Notes under the pieces: generated by a model
Told to the model about the DNA's origin: nothing
The model's database searches: none
The model's input: the letters and a program-made list of their open reading frames with translations, nothing else
NCBI GenBank assembly: GCA_902532675.1
Contig: CACAIY010000004.1
Location: 20,068-84,067 of the forward strand
Direction of reading: 5' to 3'
Source of the DNA: an uncultured SAR86 cluster bacterium
GTDB taxonomy: Bacteria; Pseudomonadota; Gammaproteobacteria; Magnimaribacterales; Magnimaribacteraceae
DNA length: 64,000 nucleotides
Program-made: the position numbers and the translations under genes
Shown here: in pieces, positions 44,077 through 45,426 of the stretch
Position numbering within the stretch: position 1 is the first letter of the stretch
Layout of the letters: every line of letters starts with the position of its first letter

Positions 44077-44526
44077 TTAGCTTAGTAATTTACTCTTAGA
44101 AGTAAAATCAATTTTTCTAGTTTTCTTCTCTTCAGGAATAATTCTTTCTATCCCTATATACAACATGCCGTTACTAAGAGCTGCGCCCTTTATAACCATG
44201 TCATCAGAAAGAACAAATCTTTTAACAAAGTTTCTTGATGCTAAACCTTGATGTAAAAGTCCTTCAGATGCGTCTTTATCTTTGGATCCTTTAATTACTA
44301 GGTTTTCACCCGAAGCTTCTATATCAATTTCTTCCTCTTCAAATCCCGCAACGGCTAGCTCAATAGTATATTTATCTTCGCTAACTTTTCTTATGTTGTA
44401 AGGCGGGTAATTTGAGGATTCTTGTTTTGAATTCGCTAGCATGGCTAAACTATCAAAGGTCCTATCAAATCCTACTGCAAAAGGAGAGATATCTCTCCAT
44501 AGTAAGTCAAATGTATTATTTATCAT
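44077..44526 (-). CDS. Hsp20/IbpA-family small heat shock protein
   Basis: Alpha-crystallin domain: KVSEDKYTIELAVAGFEEEEIDIEASGENLVIKGSK, HQGLASRNFVKRFVLSDDM. Confidence 0.94.
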   Translation of the reverse strand: MINNTFDLLWRDISPFAVGFDRTFDSLAMLANSKQESSNYPPYNIRKVSEDKYTIELAVAGFEEEEIDIEASGENLVIKGSKDKDASEGLLHQGLASRNFVKRFVLSDDMVIKGAALSNGMLYIGIERIIPEEKKTRKIDFTSKSKLLS

Positions 44527-44533
44527 TTTTTTT

Positions 44534-44552
44534 CTCCTTATAATTAAGCAAG
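44534..44552 (-). promoter_or_regulatory. ROSE-like RNA thermometer hairpin sequestering the Shine-Dalgarno of the Hsp20 gene
   Basis: On the minus strand CTTGCTT-AATTAT-AAGGAG followed by 7 A and ATG; U(U)GCU anti-SD pairs AAGGAG with a bulged G. Confidence 0.7.
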
Positions 44553-44595
44553 TTAAATAATTTACGTAAGCCCCTAAGGCACTTACACTATATAT

Positions 44596-44621
44596 ATGGG
44601 GTTTTTTATTTAGAAAACAAG
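44596..44621 (-). promoter_or_regulatory. Sigma32-like heat-shock promoter of the Hsp20 gene
   Basis: Minus strand CTTGTT-N14-CCCCATATATA versus consensus CTTGAA-N13-15-CCCCATnT. Confidence 0.7.
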
Positions 44622-44631
44622 GATAACAATT

Positions 44632-45426
44632 ATGAAAGATTTATTTTCAATAGAAGGAAAAGTGGCTCTTGTAACTGGTGGTTCAAGAGGTATAGGAGAA
44701 ATGATTGCAGCAGGCTTTTTAGCTAATGGGGCAAAAGTTTATATAAGTTCAAGAAAAGCAGAAGTATGCGATGCGACGGCTGAAAGACTAGCTAAAGAAT
44801 ATGGAGGAGAATGCATTTCAATTCCTGCAGACCTTTCTAATTTAGAAGGCATTAGTGCTTTAGCCAATGAGCTGTCTTCAAAAGAGAAGTCTCTGGATAT
44901 ATTAGTAAACAATGCAGGCGCTTCTTGGGGAGAGCCCATAGAGGATTATTCTGAATTAGGCTGGGATAAAGTTATGGACACTAACGTTAAGGGTATATTC
45001 TTTCTCACACAGCAGTTATTGCCTTTATTAAGAGAGTCTGGAAACGCTGACAACACATCTAGAGTTATTAATATAGGATCAATTGACGGAATTAAAACAG
45101 GTACATTTGATGCATTCTCTTATGGTCCTTCAAAAGCTGCTGTTCATCACTTAACACGCGTATTGGCTGCTAGACTAATTAAAGACCATATAATTGTTAA
45201 TGCCATTGCTCCAGGCCCATTCCCAACTTGGATGTTAAGTACTGGAGTAGGCGGTGGCGGTGATACAGATATAGATTGGTCTGCTGTTGGACAAAGCAAC
45301 CCGAGTGGAAGAGTGGGCGATGCAGAAGATATTGCTGGTCTAGCTATTTTTCTCAGTTCAAGAGCAGGTGCTTATACGGTTGGTCAGACAATAGCCTGCG
45401 ATGGAGGAGCTGTAGCGAGTTCATAA
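44632..45426 (+). CDS. SDR family oxidoreductase
   Basis: GGSRGIGEMIA, NNAGASWG, YGPSKAA, CDGG. Confidence 0.93.
   Translation: MKDLFSIEGKVALVTGGSRGIGEMIAAGFLANGAKVYISSRKAEVCDATAERLAKEYGGECISIPADLSNLEGISALANELSSKEKSLDILVNNAGASWGEPIEDYSELGWDKVMDTNVKGIFFLTQQLLPLLRESGNADNTSRVINIGSIDGIKTGTFDAFSYGPSKAAVHHLTRVLAARLIKDHIIVNAIAPGPFPTWMLSTGVGGGGDTDIDWSAVGQSNPSGRVGDAEDIAGLAIFLSSRAGAYTVGQTIACDGGAVASS

Follow-up and report, generated by a model that had tools for sequence, protein, structure and literature searches.

ROSE elements, probably the most abundant class of RNA thermometers, are established in alpha- and gamma-proteobacteria, where two to four hairpins precede small heat-shock genes (PMC4166951), and their published core is U(U/C)GCU with a bulged G (PMC11342760, PMC3669281). 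The two-hairpin thermometers of Pseudomonas ibpA have been proven by probing, toeprint, and reporters, and it is hairpin II that melts, whereas hairpin I does not (PMC3669281). Here, we describe an element upstream of a small heat-shock gene in a bacterium of the SAR86 order. It lies in the 5′ leader and, judged from sequence, conservation, and covariation, is very likely to be a ROSE-type RNA thermometer. The class is a known one, and its occurrence in SAR86 is apparently unreported within the literature searched (most subscription papers being outside its scope), in which we found no paper covering both SAR86 and RNA thermometers.

The window, which is the whole stretch of DNA analyzed, comprises 64,000 nucleotides from an uncultured SAR86 cluster bacterium, and the features concerned are as follows.

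44077 to 44526, minus strand: Hsp20/IbpA-like small heat-shock protein of 149 aa, the regulated gene (Pfam PF00011; IbpA is the nearest NCBIfam model).
44534 to 44552, minus strand: hairpin II, with the anti-Shine-Dalgarno CUUGCUU (44552-44546), the loop AAUUAU (44545-44540), the Shine-Dalgarno (SD) AAGGAG (44539-44534), and a bulged G at 44549, based on sequence, conservation, and the ROSE_3 alignment.
44566 to 44586, minus strand: hairpin I, GUAAG-U-[G]-CC-UUAG-GG-G-CUUAC, with a bulged G in UGCC/GGG, based on covariation, invariance, and the minimum free energy fold.
44594 to 44621, minus strand: putative sigma32-type promoter, CTTGTTT (44621-44615), a 13-nt spacer, and CCCCATAT (44601-44594), assigned by sequence.

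The ORF starts with the ATG at 44526-44524, and its product was identified as an alpha-crystallin/Hsp20 protein (PF00011, E 9e-18), for which the closest NCBIfam model was IbpA at 127 bits, under that model's cut-off of 212 bits. The gene was found as a single copy in the genome, and its named relatives, with protein identities of 74-95%, are mostly from SAR86 cluster bacteria, the named orthologs coming largely from single-cell or metagenome assemblies. The leader is that of a small heat-shock gene, as is typical of ROSE elements in the literature, and is situated between this gene (44526-44077, minus strand) and a divergent short-chain dehydrogenase gene that starts at 44632 on the plus strand.

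The pairs of hairpin II are, in order, C-G, U-A, U.G, the bulged G, C-G, U-A, and U-A, and this pairing is the published ROSE core, located in the last hairpin (44552-44534), as it is at all 91 ortholog loci. The initial annotation had placed CUUGCUU-AAUUAU-AAGGAG 7 nt before the AUG, which was exact in both letters and coordinates, the gap between AAGGAG and the AUG (44526) being 7 nt, and had proposed that UUGCU pairs with the SD to leave a bulged G, which is seen in the window and kept across the order. It had also put a second hairpin upstream at about 44568-44586, and this was located essentially as placed, at 44586-44566. The element, which it called unusually minimal, is not a lone hairpin, as the leader follows the two-hairpin architecture of the thermometers of Pseudomonas ibpA (PMC3669281), albeit with a hairpin II of low thermodynamic stability; two hairpins also lie within the range of two to four stem-loops given for ROSE elements. 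The leader is approximately 60 nt long, with an A+U-rich linker of 12 nt joining the two hairpins. Hairpin I has a local feature like that of hairpin II (U.G, bulged G, C-G, and C-G), and its bulged-G core (UGCC/GGG; UGCU/AGG in L043, L060, and L068) resembles the SD-hairpin core, which is puzzling, given that no melting is seen for hairpin I in Pseudomonas. Longer linkers and apparently three stem-loops were observed in L059, L064, and L069, and two tandem (A)UGCC-loop-GG(G/A)U hairpins with a bulged G were observed 5′ of the SD hairpin at distant Hsp20 genes (L052, L057, L063, L065, and L072), suggestive of a duplication of the hairpin I module.

The leader resembles the short ROSE-like thermometer of Pseudomonas ibpA in having only two hairpins, a sigma32-type promoter, a stable upstream hairpin I, an IbpA-type small heat-shock gene, and a hairpin II in which U(U/C)GCU and the SD are paired around a bulged G, but differs from it in that hairpin II here is A+U-rich and weaker (PMC3669281). 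It is also like the Rfam ROSE_2 element (RF01832) of E. coli ibpA/ibpB, in which a U(C)GCU-SD hairpin lies directly 5′ of the IbpA gene and the upstream hairpin has a bulged G. The ROSE-G motif of ABC-transporter genes likewise has the SD paired in a G-bulged stem, but is characterized by CUGCU and opposing bulged Gs (PMC12857270), whereas the element here shares with canonical ROSE the UUGCU sequence, the U.G wobble, and only one bulged G; identity with ROSE-G was therefore rejected. A fourU thermometer was rejected as well, since it needs a UUUU run to pair with the SD and the anti-SD here is CUUGCUU.

When the leader was compared permissively with 4227 Rfam families, ROSE_3 (RF02523) ranked first, with 25.8 bits, an E of 0.001, and the model aligned over positions 1-69 of 69, so that the two-hairpin consensus was aligned from end to end. 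The likeness includes the GAUGCC/GGGUC hairpin with its bulged G and the ACUUGCU...AGGAG hairpin, and in the consensus structures of both ROSE_3 and ROSE_2, the upstream hairpin also contains a bulged G. Because 25.8 bits is below the gathering score of 43 bits reached by RF02523 members, we class the window copy as ROSE-type and not as a formal member of that family. The whole-window Rfam search at gathering thresholds gave no match, and the ROSE_2 model did not report the element in the permissive leader scan, while E. coli ibpB, used as a positive control in the same scan, matched ROSE_2 at 100.4 bits. Across the whole genome, the window's leader was the one ROSE_3 match (E 0.002). Furthermore, an ortholog of the same family (G001, L051/L074), with a protein identity of 67%, scored 44.1 bits against ROSE_3 directly 5′ of Hsp20, which is over the cut-off.

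A sigma32-type promoter, as found at Pseudomonas ibpA, is predicted upstream of hairpin I from its sequence, from a pattern shared by orthologs, and from the presence of RpoH, which is encoded in the genome (402 bits against a cut-off of 323). Of 37 ortholog leaders, 25 had a relaxed sigma32-like pattern 5′ of hairpin I (compared with 4% of shuffles), including almost every leader of the window's own group. The scan covered the region upstream of hairpin I, and in the other SAR86 families, the promoter may be located at a greater distance, past extra hairpins. Transcription would start near 44588. The −35 box overlaps the apparent SD of the divergent dehydrogenase gene at 44615-44632 (CTCCTTGA in relatives), so that the two functions use common bases.

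Energy calculations using ViennaRNA at 37°C gave −11.3 kcal/mol for the whole leader, compared with −15 to −21.5 kcal/mol reported for two Pseudomonas elements (PMC3669281), −8.3 kcal/mol for hairpin I, and about −1.5 kcal/mol for hairpin II. The corresponding z-scores were −0.9, −2.2, and −1.6, and the predicted SD pairing of Hsp20 ranked 6th among 22 genes of the window. The folding energy alone is unexceptional, and the support for the element lies in its conservation and covariation.

With respect to conservation, 121 genomes of the SAR86 order were scanned with strict patterns for both motif forms, and matches were found to adjoin 86 of 91 Hsp20-like loci, as the UUGCU form at 45 and the UCGCU form at 41. 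The remaining five, which include a divergent second Hsp20-like locus in G080 (L089), were read directly and have relaxed forms, with UUGCU or UCGCU and AAAGGAGGACU, AGGAGGGCU, or GAGGAG. The bulged-G motif U(U/C)GCU...GGA therefore precedes all 91 loci across the order. Loss of UUGCU in orthologs, which the initial annotation had named as grounds for abandoning its proposal, was looked for and not found, the core being UUGCU or the known variant UCGCU everywhere. About 20 matches of the UUGCU pattern occurred elsewhere in the 121 genomes; their sequences varied, and they look like chance matches, with a few, such as G033:C42:48-75, looking like Hsp20 leaders on truncated contigs. In the 1.34-Mb genome itself, TTGCT-N2-10-AAGGAG-N3-10-ATG occurs twice, one copy being at Hsp20, and its backwards control gave 0 copies. 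The fetched loci contain 117 distinct ORF starts with an SD, of which 50 have the motif; these all belong to small heat-shock genes except for glnA, whose locus had itself been picked by the model search. It could be supposed that an AT-rich leader happens by chance to have an SD complement nearby, in line with the shortness of the hairpin and the z-score of the whole leader. Such a coincidence is scarcely conceivable and is refuted by the conservation of the motif across the order, as it was kept at all the Hsp20-like loci, across families with protein identities of approximately 40%, and backwards controls of the strict patterns gave 1 and 0 matches in the 121 genomes.

For covariation, we used an alignment of 25 distinct leaders of the UUGCU group (A2) in equal-length, loop-trimmed rows, which were adopted because a MAFFT alignment (A1) had misplaced the loops and the SD. 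The pairing counts rest on an alignment set in register with the motif, and they were checked by controls with slid partners and by unaided RNAalifold. In hairpin I, 6 of 8 pairs showed compensatory changes and 98% of cells were paired (25 sequences), and its bulged G and C-G pair were invariant in 40 of 40 distinct leaders. For the whole structure in A2, 46 cells were changed on both sides, compared with 9.8 in shuffles, and 96.3% of cells were paired, compared with 35-58% when the partners were displaced by 1 to 3 columns; unguided RNAalifold recovered both hairpins. Hairpin II shows no covariation within the window's UUGCU group because its core is invariant there. Across families, however, ACUUGCU...AGGAG(U) is replaced by AGUCGCU...AGGAGGACU, with the flank C-G changed to G-C and U.G to C-G, while the bulged G is retained. 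Overall, covariation was strong in hairpin I, and hairpin II changed coordinately between families.

These data also bear on the idea that the conserved letters act at the DNA level, as an operator or a site bound by a protein (for example, a heat-shock repressor), and not as an RNA structure. Hairpin I is indeed an inverted repeat beside the promoter, and UUGCUU is strongly conserved at the sequence level, but the pairing of hairpin I is kept as its letters change (GUAAG/CUUAC, GUGGA/UUCAC, GUUGA/UCAAC, and GCUGA/UCGGC), which a protein site would not need. Moreover, the second conserved part complements the SD and lies at a fixed reach from it, and the best database match is an RNA family. 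We therefore regard an operator as very improbable.

The covariance model R1, for which rows of this equal-length, loop-trimmed kind were also used, picked up leaders from genera and families outside its training set, for example, L053, L056, L058, and L068, and the leader was its sole match in the window's genome. In a class-wide search, R1 gave three weak matches outside the order, none at Hsp20, which were taken as chance. A weak R1 match was observed in another gammaproteobacterium (L081:766-791), where TTGCTTAACCCTAGGAG lies directly 5′ of a glutamine synthetase gene, perhaps by chance.

The predicted SD pairing in context decreased from 0.76 at 15°C to 0.68 at 37°C, a drop no bigger than that for some other genes of the window, and part of the ViennaRNA ensemble favored alternative registers of hairpin II. 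The context was extended to +75 nt, as an end at +30 cuts a palindrome in the coding region and yields pairing with it. This perfect palindrome, GGAGAGATATCTCTCC (44482-44500), encodes WRDISP, includes SD-like GGAG and CTCC, and differs among relatives; it is probably a by-product of the protein motif. For the proven thermometer of E. coli ibpA, the same calculation gave an SD pairing of 0.99 at 25°C and 0.94 at 42°C. Because the calculation misses melting even there, we treat the ViennaRNA energies as uninformative on thermometer function.

The small temperature change in the predicted SD pairing, the weakness of hairpin II, and the presence of the sigma32-like promoter would suit a structured 5′ untranslated region that sets mRNA stability or a constant translation strength and senses no temperature, heat control being exerted by sigma32 alone. 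We consider this improbable, as the proven thermometer barely melts in the same calculation and, furthermore, the bulged G, which plain structure or stability does not need, and the register of U(U/C)GCU with the SD are kept in 91 of 91 loci despite changing flanks and loops. The ROSE type assigned in the initial annotation is, on the other hand, backed by the best Rfam match, the ortholog above the gathering score, the motif at every locus, the covariation, and the sigma32-like promoter with RpoH.

As a ROSE-type thermometer, the leader would exert the second stage of a two-stage control, in which the transcript comes from sigma32 activity and its SD stays covered by hairpin II until the temperature rises. 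Heat shock would boost transcription via RpoH at the sigma32-type promoter, and the transcript would fold into the stable hairpin I and the weak hairpin II, the latter formed by CUUGCUU and AAGGAG with one bulged G and one U.G wobble. By analogy with the proven Pseudomonas and E. coli elements, the SD is probably masked when cool and exposed when warm, with hairpin II hiding the ribosome-binding site at lower temperatures and opening upon warming to let translation begin.

The SAR86 lineage is abundant in the surface ocean, mostly uncultured, and has small genomes, and the finding of the motif at all the small heat-shock genes examined points to persistence of the switch through strong genome reduction. 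As the one robust contrast among the calculated energies at 37°C, the SD hairpins of SAR86 leaders with UUGCU (−0.1 to −2 kcal/mol) are weaker than those of SAR86 families with UCGCU (−2.6 to −4.3 kcal/mol) and of E. coli ibpA (−5.1 kcal/mol), the last being far more stable than that of the window (about −1.5 kcal/mol). In terms of these modeled energies, the weak SD hairpin may confer a lower set point, and the weakness of hairpin II could cause leaky repression. As a tentative idea, to which we give limited credence, the SAR86 ROSE elements might be re-tuned thermometers, in which a weak, A+U-rich SD hairpin sets the point within the ocean range (perhaps 15-30°C) and the weak UUGCU and stronger AGUCGCU/AGGAGGACU families open at different temperatures; the leader would then predict the thermal niche of uncultured plankton. 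The two sequence classes of hairpin II, together with its low stability, provide a direct test of set-point shifts in bacteria that rarely see 37°C.
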